Shown: positions 52,709 through 58,390 of the stretch, piece by piece
How the letters are laid out: each line of letters starts with the position of its first letter
Position numbering within the stretch: the stretch's first letter is position 1
Assembly (NCBI RefSeq): GCF_004803475.1
Contig: NZ_SRKY01000005.1
Coordinates: 186,001-250,000, forward strand
Length of the DNA: 64,000 bases
Direction: 5' to 3'
Origin: Aliishimia ponticola
Lineage (GTDB): Bacteria; Pseudomonadota; Alphaproteobacteria; Rhodobacterales; Rhodobacteraceae
The notes under the pieces: model-generated
Told to the model about the DNA's origin: nothing
Seen by the model: only the letters and a program-made list of their open reading frames with translations
Databases searched by the model: none
Made by a program: the position numbers and the translations under genes

Positions 52709-53362
52709 TTACTCCAGCGACAGCGGTCCTTCTCCGGCAAGGTTCAGAAGGCCCAACGTCTCCAACCCGCCCAGGGTTGCATCCACGGCGACGGTGGCGA
52801 GGATAAGGCCCATCACGCGGCTGACGACGCTTGATCCTGTGGTGCCAATAGCCCGCTGAAGCCGCCCGGCCATCAGCAGAAGCGCCAGTGTCATCGCCAG
52901 CACGATCAATAGCAGACCGGCGGTGATCACCTGTTCTTCAATCGGATTGCTGTCATTTTCCGTCAGGATCACGATCGCCAGCATCGCGCCGGGCGACGCA
53001 ATCGACGGCATCGCCAGCGGGAACACGGCACCGGCAAGATGGTCGCTCTCTGCTTCGCTGATCTCTTGCGCGGCCTTGCTTTGCCCGAAGATCATGGTCA
53101 GCGCGAAAAGGAACAGGATCAGCCCGCCGGCCACTTGGAACGAGCCAAGCCGCAACCCAAGGCTTTCCAGCAGAACCTGGCCGCCGACGAGAAACAGCAA
53201 CAGCACGAACGCCGCGATCAGCACCGCACGAATGGCAAACCGCTTGTGCAGTTTCTTCGGCACATGCGCCGTCGCATACAGAAATACGGGGAGCGATCCG
53301 ATCGGGTCGATGACCACGAACAGAGTCACGAATTCCTTGAGAAGTGTTGTCCAATCCAGCAT
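52709..53362 (-). CDS. MarC family integral membrane protein
   Basis: A 217-residue, six-helix membrane protein of the MarC/UPF0056 family. It has the VTLFVVIDPIGSLPVFLYAT N-terminal block, a second-half repeat FPLAMPSIASPGAMLAIVIL and the C-terminal VSRVMGLILATVAVD. The biochemical role of the family is unknown; E. coli MarC is not itself an antibiotic-resistance determinant. The ATG at 53362 is preceded by GGGGGC, and upstream in-frame codons lack this. It is oriented opposite to its pncA and pncB neighbours. Confidence 0.92.
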   Translation of the reverse strand: MLDWTTLLKEFVTLFVVIDPIGSLPVFLYATAHVPKKLHKRFAIRAVLIAAFVLLLFLVGGQVLLESLGLRLGSFQVAGGLILFLFALTMIFGQSKAAQEISEAESDHLAGAVFPLAMPSIASPGAMLAIVILTENDSNPIEEQVITAGLLLIVLAMTLALLLMAGRLQRAIGTTGSSVVSRVMGLILATVAVDATLGGLETLGLLNLAGEGPLSLE

Positions 53363-53527
53363 GCCCCCGGCGCTATGGCGTCCGGGCCGTTCGGTCAACG
53401 GGGTTTCCTTGAAAATCACGCAAATTTAAGCGCCACGCCCCGTAAAGGGCCCCAAATCGCACCAAATGCGGCCCCTTGCGCTTGCCCGCTGCAATGCGGT
53501 CTAAGTGAGCCACGAAGGAGAACGCTT

Positions 53528-54820
53528 ATGGTCGATATCGCCACCCGTGTCTGGAATCACAAATGGAAGATCGACCCCGTGGTCCGGTCCCTGATCGATA
53601 CCGACTTCTACAAGCTGCTGATGTGCCAGTCCGTCTTTCGCAACAAGCCGGATACGCATGTCACGTTCTCGCTCATCAACCGGGCCAAGCATGTTCCGCT
53701 GGCGAAACTCATCGACGAAGGTGAATTGCGCGAGCAGCTGGATCATATCCGGTCCCTGTCGCTCAGCCGGGGCGAATCCACGTGGATGCGCGGCAACACG
53801 TTCTATGGCAAACGCCAAATGTTCACGCCTGCTTTCATGGACTGGTTCGAACAACTCCGCCTGCCGCCCTACCACCTTGAACGGGTGGGTGACCAATACG
53901 AGCTGACCTTCGAGGGCAGCTGGCCCGAGGTCATGCTGTGGGAAATTCCCGCCCTTGCCGTGCTTATGGAACTGCGGGGGCGCGCCGTGCTGCACGATAT
54001 GGGCCGGTTCGAACTGCAAGTGCTCTATGCCCGCGCCATGACCCGGATCTGGGAAAAGGTCGAAGCGCTGCGGGGGCTGCCGGGGCTGCGCGTTGCGGAT
54101 TTCGGCACGCGGCGGCGACATGGCTTCCTGTGGCAGGACTGGTGCGTGCAGGCGATGTATGAAGGGCTGGGGGAGGCCTTTGTGGGCACGTCCAACTGCC
54201 TGATCGCCAAGAACCGCGACCTTGAGGCGATCGGCACCAACGCGCACGAATTGCCCATGGTCTATGCGGCGCTTGCGGAAGATGACGACGCCCTCGCGCG
54301 CGCGCCCTATGATGTGCTGTCCGACTGGCACGAGGAACACTCCGGCAACCTGCGCATCATCCTGCCTGACACTTACGGAACCGAAGGCTTCCTGAAACGC
54401 GCGCCCGATTGGCTGGCGGGCTGGACGGGCATCCGGATCGATTCCGGCGACCCGGCCACAGCGGCAGAGATCGCAATCCGGTGGTGGCAGGACCGGGGCG
54501 AGGATCCAAAGAAGAAGCTGATCATCTTCTCGGACGGGTTGGACGTGGACAAGATCCGCGAACTTCACGCCCAGTTCACCGGCCGCGTGCGGGTGTCCTT
54601 CGGCTGGGGCACGATGCTGACCAATGACTTCCGGGGGCTGACCGAAGACGACGCGCTCGCGCCGTTCTCACTGGTGTGCAAAGCGGTGGCCGCAAACGGA
54701 CGCCCGACCGTGAAGCTGAGCGATAATCCCCGGAAAGCTATGGGCCCAGAGGACGAGGTTGCGCGGTATAAGCGCGTGTTCGGGGTGGGAGAGCAGGAAG
54801 AGATGGAGGTTGTGGTCTAA
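53528..54820 (+). CDS. pncB: Nicotinate phosphoribosyltransferase
   Basis: Converts nicotinate and PRPP to nicotinate mononucleotide, the step after PncA in NAD salvage. The 430-residue protein shows SLIDTDFYKLLMCQSVF, FGTRRRHGFLWQD, a FVGTSNCLIAK block, the phosphate-binding region GIRIDSGDPA, and the C-terminal VKLSDNPRKAMGP with FGWGTMLTND before it. The ATG has GAAGGAGAACGCTT upstream, an excellent ribosome-binding site. A weak 7-bp hairpin (54814-54834) straddles the stop codon. Confidence 0.96.
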   Translation: MVDIATRVWNHKWKIDPVVRSLIDTDFYKLLMCQSVFRNKPDTHVTFSLINRAKHVPLAKLIDEGELREQLDHIRSLSLSRGESTWMRGNTFYGKRQMFTPAFMDWFEQLRLPPYHLERVGDQYELTFEGSWPEVMLWEIPALAVLMELRGRAVLHDMGRFELQVLYARAMTRIWEKVEALRGLPGLRVADFGTRRRHGFLWQDWCVQAMYEGLGEAFVGTSNCLIAKNRDLEAIGTNAHELPMVYAALAEDDDALARAPYDVLSDWHEEHSGNLRIILPDTYGTEGFLKRAPDWLAGWTGIRIDSGDPATAAEIAIRWWQDRGEDPKKKLIIFSDGLDVDKIRELHAQFTGRVRVSFGWGTMLTNDFRGLTEDDALAPFSLVCKAVAANGRPTVKLSDNPRKAMGPEDEVARYKRVFGVGEQEEMEVVV

Positions 54821-55308: not shown

Positions 55309-56625
55309 TCACAGCTCTATTGCGTATTCTTCATCTGACTTGACTTTTTGAAGTAAATCTACGCTTTTCAGAGACCATTTCCGGACTTTGCTGTTCTTCC
55401 CGGGTCCGGTTTTGATTTGGCAATGATATGAGTTATCAGATGACCGAAGGTCTACCCCCGTCTCATCCTTGACCCGGTTGACAAGCTTATTCGCTCCAGA
55501 CCAGTGATTAAATCCAAGCCGCTTGGCTACTTGAGTGATTGTGAGCGGATGCGTATGGTTTGGATTATTAGTTATCGCGATTCCAAGAAGTTTAGGAAGC
55601 TCGGAATCCTGATCCGCAACCCTCTCAAGCACATCGTAATCCACTTCGACACTGCCAGTTGGAATATCATGACGAATAAGCTTCATTGTTCTTGCGGCCA
55701 ATGCGCGAACTAGCTTTGGGTTTACAGATGTCAAAGCTGATTGACTCTTCAGCGCCTCGAAGACCCACTGGAAGTTTTGCGCGTAGACCGCGTTAATGCG
55801 AAACTCCCTGCCATCGACCGAAAAGACCGCCTGTTCAGGAGGGTTCTTGGGAAGATCTTTCACCCAGATGACTTGATATACGTTGTCGATAAGGCCAGTA
55901 TCGTCGGCGACGAGTTCACCAATGTCTCGCAATATTTCTTTGACGTTTGGATCCCCAAGCCCATAACCGAAAATGAAAACGGGGTGCTCCGCGAAGTAGG
56001 TCAGAAGCTTAGCGGAGATGTACTTTTTCTTGTCTTTCCATTCTTCATAATCCTCACGCGTTAAAACAATAGAGGATGGCTCGCTGACATCACCGTGGAT
56101 GTGAAATATTTCACCGAAGCTATTGGTGTTATAGCGGATTATTGTCTGCCCAGTCACTGGGACGTATCCCTCAAAGATCACTTCAAGAGAGTGATCGTAA
56201 TTTGTTGTGATGATCGCATGTGGCCTGATATCTGACAGCGCAGCCACCTCTTTTGGAAGTGTGCTGAAGTCTTCCCGATTCCCGGGAGTTACTTTCGAAA
56301 GGTGCTCGCAAACCAAGCTTTTCAGAAAACAGTCCTTGCTCATGCCGGCTTCAAAGAGTGCCTCTGGAAATGAGGCTTTACCTGCGCCCCACGCCCACTC
56401 GAAAACCAAGTCCGACAACTCTGATCCTATTGCGATCGGATCGCCAGAGTGTTTTTGATAGTAGTATTCGAATTTTCCGTGATGTACTGGCATTCCATCC
56501 AGAACTATCTTCAGAAGTTCCAGCCAGCTTGGTGCCTCAAAGTAGCGCTTGGGAATCCCGCTCCCCATAAACAGTATCGGCTGGCACTCAAACTCAAGAA
56601 GAACGTCTCTAATTTTTGCATCCAT
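55309..56625 (-). CDS. Stand-alone SIR2-domain protein, putative NADase defence effector
   Basis: A 438-residue protein with a SIR2-like NAD-binding core and an extra C-terminal domain. Core motifs in order: FMGSGIPKRYF (GSG at 21-23), TTNYD (140-144) with the NAD-site asparagine, HIHGD (175-179) with the candidate catalytic His, and FGYGLGDPN (219-227). Residues about 360-425 look like a winged helix (TITQVAKRLGFNHWSGANKL, then a DNSYHCQ strand and KVRKWSLKS). Related SIR2_2 proteins deplete NAD during phage infection. I used the ATG at 56625; a TTG at 56685 adds 20 residues, and neither has a good ribosome-binding site. Lower G+C than its neighbours suggests transfer. Confidence 0.8.
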   Translation of the reverse strand: MDAKIRDVLLEFECQPILFMGSGIPKRYFEAPSWLELLKIVLDGMPVHHGKFEYYYQKHSGDPIAIGSELSDLVFEWAWGAGKASFPEALFEAGMSKDCFLKSLVCEHLSKVTPGNREDFSTLPKEVAALSDIRPHAIITTNYDHSLEVIFEGYVPVTGQTIIRYNTNSFGEIFHIHGDVSEPSSIVLTREDYEEWKDKKKYISAKLLTYFAEHPVFIFGYGLGDPNVKEILRDIGELVADDTGLIDNVYQVIWVKDLPKNPPEQAVFSVDGREFRINAVYAQNFQWVFEALKSQSALTSVNPKLVRALAARTMKLIRHDIPTGSVEVDYDVLERVADQDSELPKLLGIAITNNPNHTHPLTITQVAKRLGFNHWSGANKLVNRVKDETGVDLRSSDNSYHCQIKTGPGKNSKVRKWSLKSVDLLQKVKSDEEYAIEL

Positions 56626-56765
56626 GCGCTGAGAGTAGCTCGGCACAGCAGCGGGTTTTGCTTCAGTCAAACTTCGGCCCTTCAATTTTTTGAGGTGATG
56701 CAGATGGGCATAGGATATCTGTGGTTTAATGAGCGATAAATATCATTGCAGAGGCAACTTGGTCA

Positions 56766-56957: not shown

Positions 56958-57380
56958 CTAATCCCTATCCACTTTACCGCGCAGCGCTTTCACCTCGCCT
57001 CTGGCCTTCTTGGCTTCCAGCCGTCGTTTCTTCGACCCTAGCGTTGGCCGTGTGGGGATGCGCTTTTTGGGGCGTTCGGTGGCTTTGCGCACCAGTTCGG
57101 CCAGCCTTTCCCGCGCGATTTCGCGGTTGCGGGCTTGGCTTCGGGTATCCTGGACAAAGATCACCAAGGCCCCTTCCGCAGTCCAGCGCCGTCCGGCCAG
57201 ACGTCTCAGCCGGTTTTTGACCGGGCTGGGCAGGTTCGGGCTCCGCTCCGCTTCGAAGCGCAGTTCGACCGCGGTGGAGACCTTGTTGACGTTCTGCCCG
57301 CCCGGACCGGAGGACCGCACGAATTGCTCCGTCAGTTCCCAATCCTCGATCTCGATCTGGTCGTTGACCCGCAAACCCAT
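56958..57380 (-). CDS. arfB: Peptidyl-tRNA hydrolase ArfB (alternative ribosome rescue)
   Basis: Releases nascent chains from ribosomes stalled on mRNAs lacking a stop codon. The 140-residue protein has the class-I release-factor-like catalytic GGQ at 27-29 (SSGPGGQNVNKVST). Its strongly basic C-terminal tail (KKRIPTRPTLGSKKRRLEAKK) is the part that enters the empty mRNA channel in ArfB. The length and tail separate it from full release factors. Confidence 0.94.
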   Translation of the reverse strand: MGLRVNDQIEIEDWELTEQFVRSSGPGGQNVNKVSTAVELRFEAERSPNLPSPVKNRLRRLAGRRWTAEGALVIFVQDTRSQARNREIARERLAELVRKATERPKKRIPTRPTLGSKKRRLEAKKARGEVKALRGKVDRD

Positions 57381-57453: not shown

Positions 57454-57488
57454 TAAAAAGGGCCGTCCCGATGTGGGAGCGGCCCTTT
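57454..57488 (-). terminator. Intrinsic terminator downstream of the micro-ORF
   Basis: AAAGGGCCG (57457-57465) pairs with CGGCCCTTT (57480-57488), and the inner TCCC (57466-57469) pairs with GGGA (57475-57478) after a one-base bulge. Read on the minus strand, the stem is followed by a U-run (CCCTTTTTACG). It ends the transcript that covers yhhQ and/or the micro-ORF. Confidence 0.8.
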
Positions 57489-57553
57489 CGAAAGCTTCGG
57501 AGGCGAGGCCGGTTAGGCCGTGCCAACGCGTGAGCTACCTGCTCGGGATTGCC

Positions 57554-57610
57554 CTAAAGGCGCACCTCACACGCTGTTCCGACACCTCTCTCCAACATCT
57601 TTCTCGACAC
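57554..57610 (-). CDS. 18-codon micro-ORF with exceptionally strong Shine-Dalgarno
   Basis: GTG-initiated frame of 18 codons plus TAG, product VSRKMLERGVGTACEVRL, with no family I recognise. It is directly preceded by AAAGGAGGTGATCCA, complementary over 15 bases to the usual 3' end of 16S rRNA, with 7 bases from GGAGG to the start. It sits 62 bases downstream of yhhQ and 65 bases before a strong terminator. It could be a small protein, a leader peptide, or translated part of a small RNA. Codon statistics are meaningless at this length. Confidence 0.4.
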   Translation of the reverse strand: MSRKMLERGVGTACEVRL

Positions 57611-57625
57611 TGGATCACCTCCTTT
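57611..57625 (-). promoter_or_regulatory. Extended ribosome-binding site of the micro-ORF
   Basis: On the minus strand AAAGGAGGTGATCCA is an uninterrupted 15-nt complement of the canonical bacterial 16S rRNA tail. Genes here usually show 4-6 nt matches. GGAGGTG within it can also pair (one G-U) with CGCCTCC further down the same transcript (plus-strand 57499-57505), offering a means of self-sequestration. Confidence 0.55.
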
Positions 57626-57672: not shown

Positions 57673-58299
57673 TCAAGTTAATTTCGCCGTCGTCAGCCGG
57701 GTCGTGATCATTTTGAACGGAATTAGGGCAATCAGCGCGAGGGACAGCTTTACCATCCAATCCGCAACGGCCAGTGACATCCAAAGCGGGGCAGCCGGCC
57801 CTGCGCCCAGAAGCGGCAGGGTTTCATTGGCCCAGGACACGTCATTGCCCGGTTCGATCCATATCAGTGTCTGCGAAAACGCGATGAAGAAGAACAGCGC
57901 GGTGTCGACGGTGCTGCCGATCAGGGTCGAGGCCAGCGGCGCACGCCACCATTTCCCGCCGCGCAGGGCAGAAAAGATGCCAACGTCCAGCAATTGCGCC
58001 GTCAGGAAGGCGAGGCCGGAGCCGATGGCGATGCGCAGGGTGACGAGAGGGCCGAATTCGCCCATGATCTGGGTGCCGATGAGCGAGCAGGCGACGCCGA
58101 CGACGAAGCCCGCGAAGACGACTTTGCGCGCCGGCCCTGCGCCATAGACGCGGTTCATCACATCGGTGACGAGGAAGGCCAGCGGGTAGGTGAAGGCACC
58201 CCATGTCAGCCATTGGCCGAACAGGAATTGCACGAGGATGTTGGAGGCCACGACAATGGCGGCCATGGCAAGAATGCCGGGAAGGTGGGATCGGGTCAT
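57673..58299 (-). CDS. yhhQ: Queuosine precursor transporter (YhhQ/QPTR, VUT family)
   Basis: A 208-residue, six-helix membrane protein of the DUF165/VUT family that imports preQ0/preQ1 for queuosine synthesis. Family motifs seen are ASNILVQFLFGQWLTWGAFTYPLAFLVTDVMNRVYG, quoted in part, ARKVVFAGF, and ASTLIGSTVDTALFFFIAF. The ATG at 58299 gives the usual N-terminus; upstream in-frame starts would add basic, unconserved sequence. A two-stem potential RNA structure lies in its 91-bp leader. I looked for a preQ1 aptamer there and did not find one. Confidence 0.9.
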   Translation of the reverse strand: MTRSHLPGILAMAAIVVASNILVQFLFGQWLTWGAFTYPLAFLVTDVMNRVYGAGPARKVVFAGFVVGVACSLIGTQIMGEFGPLVTLRIAIGSGLAFLTAQLLDVGIFSALRGGKWWRAPLASTLIGSTVDTALFFFIAFSQTLIWIEPGNDVSWANETLPLLGAGPAAPLWMSLAVADWMVKLSLALIALIPFKMITTRLTTAKLT

Positions 58300-58315
58300 G
58301 TATCTGGTCCGTTTT

Positions 58316-58363
58316 GGCAAGGTAGTCGGAGACTTGTCCCGCGCGCGTCGCGGGCGCCTTGCC
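58316..58363 (-). promoter_or_regulatory. Potential structured leader upstream of yhhQ
   Basis: On the minus strand GGCAAGG (58357-58363) pairs with CCTTGCC (58316-58322), closing a 48-nt element. Within it CCCGCG (58349-58354) pairs with CGCGGG (58338-58343). It ends 17 bases before the yhhQ ATG and starts 28 bases after the stop of the preceding gene. It may be a leader structure, or a 3' hairpin of the preceding gene. Confidence 0.35.
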
Positions 58364-58390
58364 ATATAGGGGCTTCGCGGTTCGCGCAAG

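Follow-up and report, generated by a model that had tools for sequence, protein, structure and literature searches.

A conserved alphaproteobacterial micro-gene whose RNA is predicted to hide its own ribosome-binding site

The locus and its extended Shine–Dalgarno sequence

What is the role of an 18-codon reading frame that directly follows a 15-nt match to the 16S rRNA tail and is itself followed by a terminator? The question is raised by a block in a 64,000-nt stretch of Aliishimia ponticola DNA (the window), for which an earlier note had considered a small-protein gene, a ribosome-titrating or 3′-UTR-derived small RNA (sRNA) and a leader with switchable translation. The note placed the block 3′ of yhhQ, which is correct, and gave no strand. 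All parts described here are on the minus strand, between yhhQ (queuosine precursor transporter; 57673–58389, minus) upstream and arfB (alternative ribosome rescue factor; 56958–57380, minus) downstream, both outside the element. Three points were absent from the note: arfB next door, an upstream promoter-like site and the conservation of the block. In all counts below, family stands for Rhodobacteraceae, class for Alphaproteobacteria and phylum for Pseudomonadota.

The extended Shine–Dalgarno (SD) sequence, AAAGGAGGTGATCCA (57625–57611, minus), has a single exact match in the window. The next two sites carry three mismatches each and are within chance, at least three such matches being found in 18 of 100 shuffles; the claim that this SD is longer than the other sites of the window holds. 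Its 14-base core occurs once in the 4.08-Mb genome assembly. No 16S gene was found in the same assembly (0 RF00177 matches), so the 15-nt match, present as claimed, is to the 16S tail of relatives, GGCTGGATCACCTCCTTTCT. This tail was found in the assemblies of 5 of 61 relatives, most of which apparently lack rRNA genes. Counting the flanking G on each side, 17 nt of the SD region are complementary to it (GAAAGGAGGTGATCCAG). Across 63 aligned family loci, the core AAGGAGGTG is invariant.

The GTG start codon (57610–57608, minus) follows the SD immediately, and the micro-ORF, VSRKMLERGVGTACEVRL, runs from 57610 to 57554 on the minus strand, with 18 codons through 57557 and TAG at 57556–57554. 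The remaining parts of the block are likewise where the note had seen them. CGCCTCC, a mimic of the 16S tail able to pair with GGAGGTG, is present at 57505–57499 (minus; duplex energies were computed), and the predicted intrinsic terminator, a stem-loop AAAGGGCCG../..CGGCCCTTT with a T-run at about 57488–57455 (minus), is visible in the sequence and in the fold.

The SD tail is changed in L007, L131, L135, L139 and L029; in the last two loci the SD is GGTGCTTC, and the partner there, GCACCTCC, lengthens the SD pairing. L025 has an SD shorter by one base and the ORF core GIKLIGT, not GVGT, yet retains 18 codons. The extended SD also precedes ORFs of 54–57 codons in some Alphaproteobacteria (L061, L068, L069, L094 and L095), which resemble small secreted proteins by eye; therefore, the full-length SD is not unique to the micro-gene RNA.

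Distribution and kinship with CC2171

A DNA search finds the element in 27 of 60 relatives (own genome excluded; the 27 include the class-type elements L027 and L028). Of 295 family genomes, 188 contain the exact pattern GAAAGGAGGTGNTNCNNTG, and no genome is listed as having it more than once; the reversed pattern, used as a control, matches 1 of 295. Among 385 genomes drawn from the class, 69 match the exact pattern, at least five of these matches being other genes with longer, secreted-protein-like ORFs. A longer SD/start pattern is found in 34 of 67 class genomes versus 0 of 182 other Pseudomonadota genomes (the in-class and out-of-class rows were counted by hand), and the 11 loci inspected among its class matches all have ORFs of 21–27 codons. 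Furthermore, the sequence model R1, built from the first 100 nt and spanning the SD and the ORF, matches 179 of 199 family genomes once each and gives no match in 20 of the 199. Carriers among the matches listed include species of Paracoccus, Rhodobacter, Rhodovulum, Cereibacter, Gemmobacter and Defluviimonas; the plasmid collection searched contains no match. Judged by these comparisons, the block is a conserved gene. On the plus strand the site reads CTGGATCACCTCCTTT, the 16S 3′ tail, and could be taken for a remnant of 16S rRNA seen from the opposite strand, or for chance. We give this reading practically no weight: there is no rRNA match at the site, and the conservation of the SD and ORF in 179 of 199 family genomes refutes it.

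The main set comprises 68 family and 69 class loci (137 in all); L001 and L027 were left out as the same sites as L002 and L043, respectively. Structure, promoter and orientation tests in the class omit L061, L068, L069, L094 and L095 (54–57 codons), L062 (39 codons) and L063 and L098 (terminator not found), whereas structure, promoter and stop counts in the family omit L028 and L112, which are class-type elements in family genomes. The coding test used 59 loci, omitting L025, L113, L127, L129 and every locus not of 18 codons. Alignment A1 has 63 rows (without L113, L127 and L129); alignment A2 and model R1 comprise 40 of those.

At curated cut-offs, the element has no match in Rfam. At a relaxed threshold, it matches RF01867, CC2171, with 37.8 bits and E = 1e-6 (the curated gathering score is 75). 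The match runs end to end, over model positions 1–159 of 159, SD block and terminator included, and both have the start CAAC..GAAAGGAGGUGAUCC..GUGUC and a terminator hairpin. Of 15 family loci, 14 score 32.3–44.7 bits and L028 scores 27.8. In the class, CC2171 matches are found in 61 of 289 genomes at E ≤ 0.001 and in 9 of 289 above the cut-off, and are single in 55 of the 61; among 14 control genomes, only Caulobacter vibrioides matches. The best 30 class matches all have the same SD, a start at the usual spacing, a short ORF, which begins with MS in 29 and with MK in one (L046), and a terminator-like hairpin. Six of the 61 genomes have more than one match (G307, with three, G314, G048, G075, G196 and G280), and the G048 copies, L044 and L084, differ in SD tail and ORF length.

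We class the window element as a divergent relative of CC2171, CC2171-like and not a member. Besides its score under the gathering cut-off, the family ORF has 18 codons whereas class relatives mostly have 20–30 (53 of 69 loci; 18–30 in 57 of 69), and the family SD partner follows the ORF whereas the class partner tends to lie inside it. CC2171 itself, which reportedly comes from Landt 2008, is typed as an sRNA in Rfam, and its printed consensus structure lacks the SD:CCUCC helix. In the accessible part of the Rfam 15 paper, CC2171 is given one additional covarying pair, and a partly accessible source lists it as a match in Mesorhizobium huakuii; of the literature naming cc2171, the two titles that looked relevant carry it, in their accessible parts, only as a table entry. 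Descriptions of the reading frame, of the SD partner or of the occurrence throughout the class were not found in the literature covered, a scope that most subscription journals lie outside, and SD-plus-start DNA or RNA strings gave 0 matches in paper texts. In the accessible parts of the Ruegeria and Paracoccus sRNA lists (PMC4809877, PMC5107571) no entry was matched to the micro-gene locus, nor is it mentioned in those of PMC11005374, PMC13009471, PMC5082802 and PMC8625941. As far as the accessible texts go, Ribo-seq of C. crescentus found two formerly predicted ncRNAs, not named in the text, to be translated (PMC4117421), and in the small proteome of S. meliloti 33% of the 54 newly reported sORFs map to annotated sRNAs (PMC10117765).

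Reading frame and RNA structure

The ORF has exactly 18 codons in 63 of the 68 family loci, and 12, 20, 20, 26 and 26 in the remaining five. In 66 family loci, triplet 19 is TAG (26), TGA (26), TAA (11) or another triplet (3). TGG is never found there (0 of 66), even though A and G are both used at each of the two positions; about 10.7 TGG would be expected if the two varied independently. We also used a codon-substitution score of our own design, compared with column shuffles. For codons 2–12 of 59 loci, it reaches 7.39 in frame 0 versus 0.70 (sd 3.18) in the shuffles, of which 2 of 300 attain the observed value, and it is −1.00 and 0.29 in the other two frames. Codons 13–18 carry no signal of selection at the peptide level (120 of 300 shuffles reach the score), and the signal of the whole ORF is weak (24 of 300). 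Thus, the frame and the stop are kept, and constraint on residues is limited to the first two thirds of the ORF, which are also under RNA helix pairing. Conservation of the peptide, a check that the note had proposed, is in part borne out within the family: frame, 18-codon length and stop are kept, with a residue signal in codons 2–12. Across the class, the peptides (MSHCH.., MSSD.., MSNE..) have little in common past MS. The support for a translated ORF is comparative, consisting of the 18-codon length, the stop and the codon-substitution score.

The micro-gene RNA is predicted to hide its own ribosome-binding site. The full-length RNA has a predicted fold of −90.7 kcal/mol (z = −3.0), in which the SD pairs with CGCCTCC; on their own, the first 101 nt are no more stable than their shuffles (z = −0.03). 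In 63 of 66 family loci, versus 11.5 expected, GGAGGUG has a full 7-bp partner at most 32 nt ahead of the terminator, and in 14 of 66 (1.0 expected) it has a second one inside the ORF, both expectations coming from mononucleotide shuffles. In 19 of 66 family loci and in 15 of 61 class loci, the SD pairs with a better energy than in 95% of dinucleotide shuffles, which is above chance but does not hold for most loci. On the SD side, covariation cannot test this pairing because the SD core is invariant.

Two further helices are supported by comparison in the family. In the start-site hairpin (57614–57591, minus), UCCAGUGUC (57614–57606) pairs with GAUGUUGGA (57599–57591), i.e. with codons 5–7, and would bury the start codon; 94.2% of cells are paired over 63 sequences. 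In the long-range helix e, GUCGG of codons 10–11 (57583–57579, minus) pairs with CCGGC (57512–57508, minus; CCGRC in the family) inside the conserved CTAACCGGCC, with 93.9% of cells paired and double-sided changes in four of five pairs. Jointly, the two helices are 94.1% paired, and sliding the partners by 1–3 columns lowers this to 31–45%, a control that kinship can inflate. In the two helices, both sides have changed in 11 cells; shuffles give 3.0 (sd 1.4) and attain the observed number in 0 of 500, with the caveat that related sequences may exceed shuffles without any structure; further pair types are not above shuffles (17 versus 15.7; 116 of 500). Covariation of the kind that the note had suggested looking for is seen in the start hairpin and in helix e, and both helices nest with the SD helix.

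The layout differs in the class, where a 5-bp SD partner lies inside the ORF in 42 of 61 loci (24.1 expected) and between stop and terminator in 16 of 61 (18.2 expected). Moreover, a class helix b:b′, joining codons 2–5 to a pre-terminator segment, is supported by stronger pairing of own than of permuted segments (−7.28 versus −4.41, sd 0.27; 0 of 5000 permutations), and holds when each distinct segment is represented by a single locus (n = 39). In the family, this helix does not reach significance in any of seven window choices: own pairs give −5.92 versus −5.84 (1779 of 5000), the closest choice stands at 330 of 5000 and in the widest window own segments pair worse than permuted ones (1903 of 2000).

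Transcription, neighbours and possible function

Upstream of the SD, the window carries the promoter-like site TTGATT–16 nt–GACTCT (57676–57649, minus), which is weak (6 of 12 consensus positions). The pattern TTGNNN-16/17-NANNNT is present within 100 nt in 57 of 66 family loci versus 11% of shuffled upstream regions, and in 55 of 66 the site lies 50–55 nt before GGAGG. In the class it is found in 27 of 61 loci (9% in shuffles), 26 of them at 51–55 nt. A terminator-like hairpin follows the ORF in 135 of 137 loci according to a permissive script; a simple terminator scanner did not list the terminator of the window. By sequence criteria, the micro-gene forms its own transcription unit. The linkage to yhhQ may be explained by the −35 element, which overlaps the yhhQ stop codon in the window.

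Within ~1.5 kb on each side, yhhQ was detected in 63 and arfB in 54 of the 68 family loci; 12 loci have only yhhQ, three only arfB and two neither. Neither gene was detected within ~1.5 kb of the class loci, and neither neighbour is obligatory for the element. An origin from the 3′ UTR of yhhQ, one of the options in the note, is rejected: the promoter-like site (57 of 66 loci) lies at a fixed distance, yhhQ is undetected in 5 of 68 loci and class relatives adjoin other genes. Processing from the yhhQ mRNA is possible as an extra source. By a base-composition heuristic, the downstream gene in the class is on the same strand in 31 and on the opposite strand in 15 of 46 callable loci, and the upstream gene in 23 and 25 callable loci, respectively. 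The arfB start, extrapolated from the alignment, is at most 30 nt from the terminator in 16 of 54 loci, so that arfB may depend on read-through in some species.

We rate the chances as about even that the micro-gene is autonomous and encodes a small RNA that is translated, closes on itself and depends on ribosome loading for its state. Sequence comparison supports the gene and its ORF with the stop, the place of the promoter-like site, the partner of the SD and both helices; we infer where the transcript would end, that it would be translated in vivo and cycle between open and closed forms, and that it might act in trans. A promoter at the end of yhhQ would start a transcript of ~190 nt, in which the near-perfect SD would be exposed ~20 nt in, and ribosomes could load on the 18-codon ORF while synthesis is ongoing. 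Once the 3′ part is made, GGAGGUG would pair with the 16S-tail mimic CRYCUCC, the 3′ end of the SD and the start codon would be held in the hairpin with codons 5–7, and codons 10–11 would pair with CCGRC of CUAACCGRCC. Since the SD and start would be exposed early and closed later, ribosome loading should occur mainly during transcription, and since a finished empty RNA would be locked, two states are expected, loaded and open or empty and closed, the closed form hiding CCUCC too. The most likely use is that of a ribosome-gated dual-function sRNA, whose loaded form would expose CCUCC or be stabilised. The switchable initiation proposed in the note survives in this form, that of a small translated RNA paired with itself, in which the frame, the stop and the internal SD partner are conserved.

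SgrS is a dual-function sRNA with a short ORF. So are Spot 42/SpfP and rnTrpL, according to the accessible part of PMC10117765. The micro-gene resembles such RNAs as a predicted small transcript with a short ORF that would be translated, and with its own promoter-like site (57 of 66) and terminator-like hairpin (135 of 137); it differs from them in that its SD core and SD partner are among its most conserved parts. A further likeness is to the S. meliloti duf1127_1 leader, where, in the accessible part of PMC12218461, the RBS of a uORF pairs internally with C-rich codons and the authors propose that the leader monitors how available ribosomes are. It lacks an intrinsic terminator, is proposed to work by Rho-type attenuation and controls a downstream gene (PMC12218461, same part), whereas the micro-gene unit is closed by a terminator and its neighbours vary. 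A DUF1127-like motif, sought with one regular expression, was not found within 1.2 kb downstream in any of 61 class loci.

In another reading, the RNA is an ordinary trans-acting antisense sRNA, the 16S-tail mimic serving as the seed for SDs of target mRNAs and the SD and ORF mainly as a cap or regulatory passenger. This is somewhat unlikely. It would fit that 63 of 66 family loci carry a CCUCC-like partner, that the element has a promoter-like site and a terminator-like hairpin of its own and that the relative CC2171 is classed as an sRNA, but it is left unexplained why the frame and stop are under selection and why the SD core is invariant. Moreover, the class 5-bp SD partner is mostly in the ORF (42 of 61 loci) and less often in the stretch from stop to terminator (16 of 61), and because it tends to sit there, translating ribosomes would cover it. 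An 18-residue peptide, MSRxxLExGVGT.., as the product that matters is decidedly unlikely. Of the small-protein option in the note, what stands is the codon-substitution signal in codons 2–12, present in the correct frame only and tested in the family; the strongly conserved TTGGA and GTCGG are also accounted for by the two helices, codons 13–18 give no signal and class peptides share little past MS.

Equally improbable in our estimate is an attenuator leader of arfB in Rhodobacteraceae, in which loading of the micro-ORF would set terminator read-through into arfB. It is locally possible, since 54 of 68 family loci have arfB downstream and 16 of these 54 have its extrapolated start at most 30 nt past the terminator, and it has a parallel in the S. 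meliloti duf1127 uORF leader, proposed in the accessible part of PMC12218461 to sense ribosome availability. However, arfB is undetected within ~1.5 kb in 14 of 68 family loci, 12 of them still beside yhhQ, no class locus has arfB and, by the composition heuristic, 31 of 46 callable class loci have their downstream gene on the element's strand. The leader option also finds no support in the sole antiterminator candidate, CYGGCCC with GGGCCG of the terminator 5′ arm: own pairs are weaker than permuted ones with a loose anchor, which misplaced some segments (−7.09 versus −7.58), and with a strict anchor (−8.47 versus −9.03; 4983 of 5000; n = 62 of 66 loci, L010, L113, L127 and L129 being missed).

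The most far-reaching reading, which we regard as quite unlikely, would be a class-wide sensor of ribosome availability, usually in single copy, made of an RNA that combines a perfect SD with its own copy of the 16S tail, able to bind that SD. Free 30S subunits and the RNA's own 16S mimic would compete for the SD. Where ribosomes win, the mimic would be freed and could mask the SDs of other mRNAs; where ribosomes are scarce, the RNA would lock shut. In Rhodobacteraceae, the device would have mostly settled ahead of the ribosome-rescue gene arfB. 

Whichever of these readings holds, the Rfam family CC2171, described as a Caulobacter sRNA, emerges as a small corner of a gene that is widespread in Alphaproteobacteria and the most conserved parts of which are the ribosome-binding site, the reading frame and the internal copy of the 16S tail. 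These parts make its function directly testable in laboratory strains and suggest a small RNA that has ribosomes, and not mRNAs alone, as its readers. As the element usually directly precedes arfB in Rhodobacteraceae, a link to ribosome rescue is a testable lead.

Two other genes of the window lie beyond arfB. Just past it, a SIR2_2-domain protein (55309–56685, minus) is a candidate anti-phage defence gene product, with PDC-S25 as its best PADLOC match (E = 9e-70) and weaker matches to ThsA, LmuA and Dsr1. Past this gene lies a nicotinate phosphoribosyltransferase gene (53039–54820, plus), the listed start of which is probably too early because the family match begins at residue 173.
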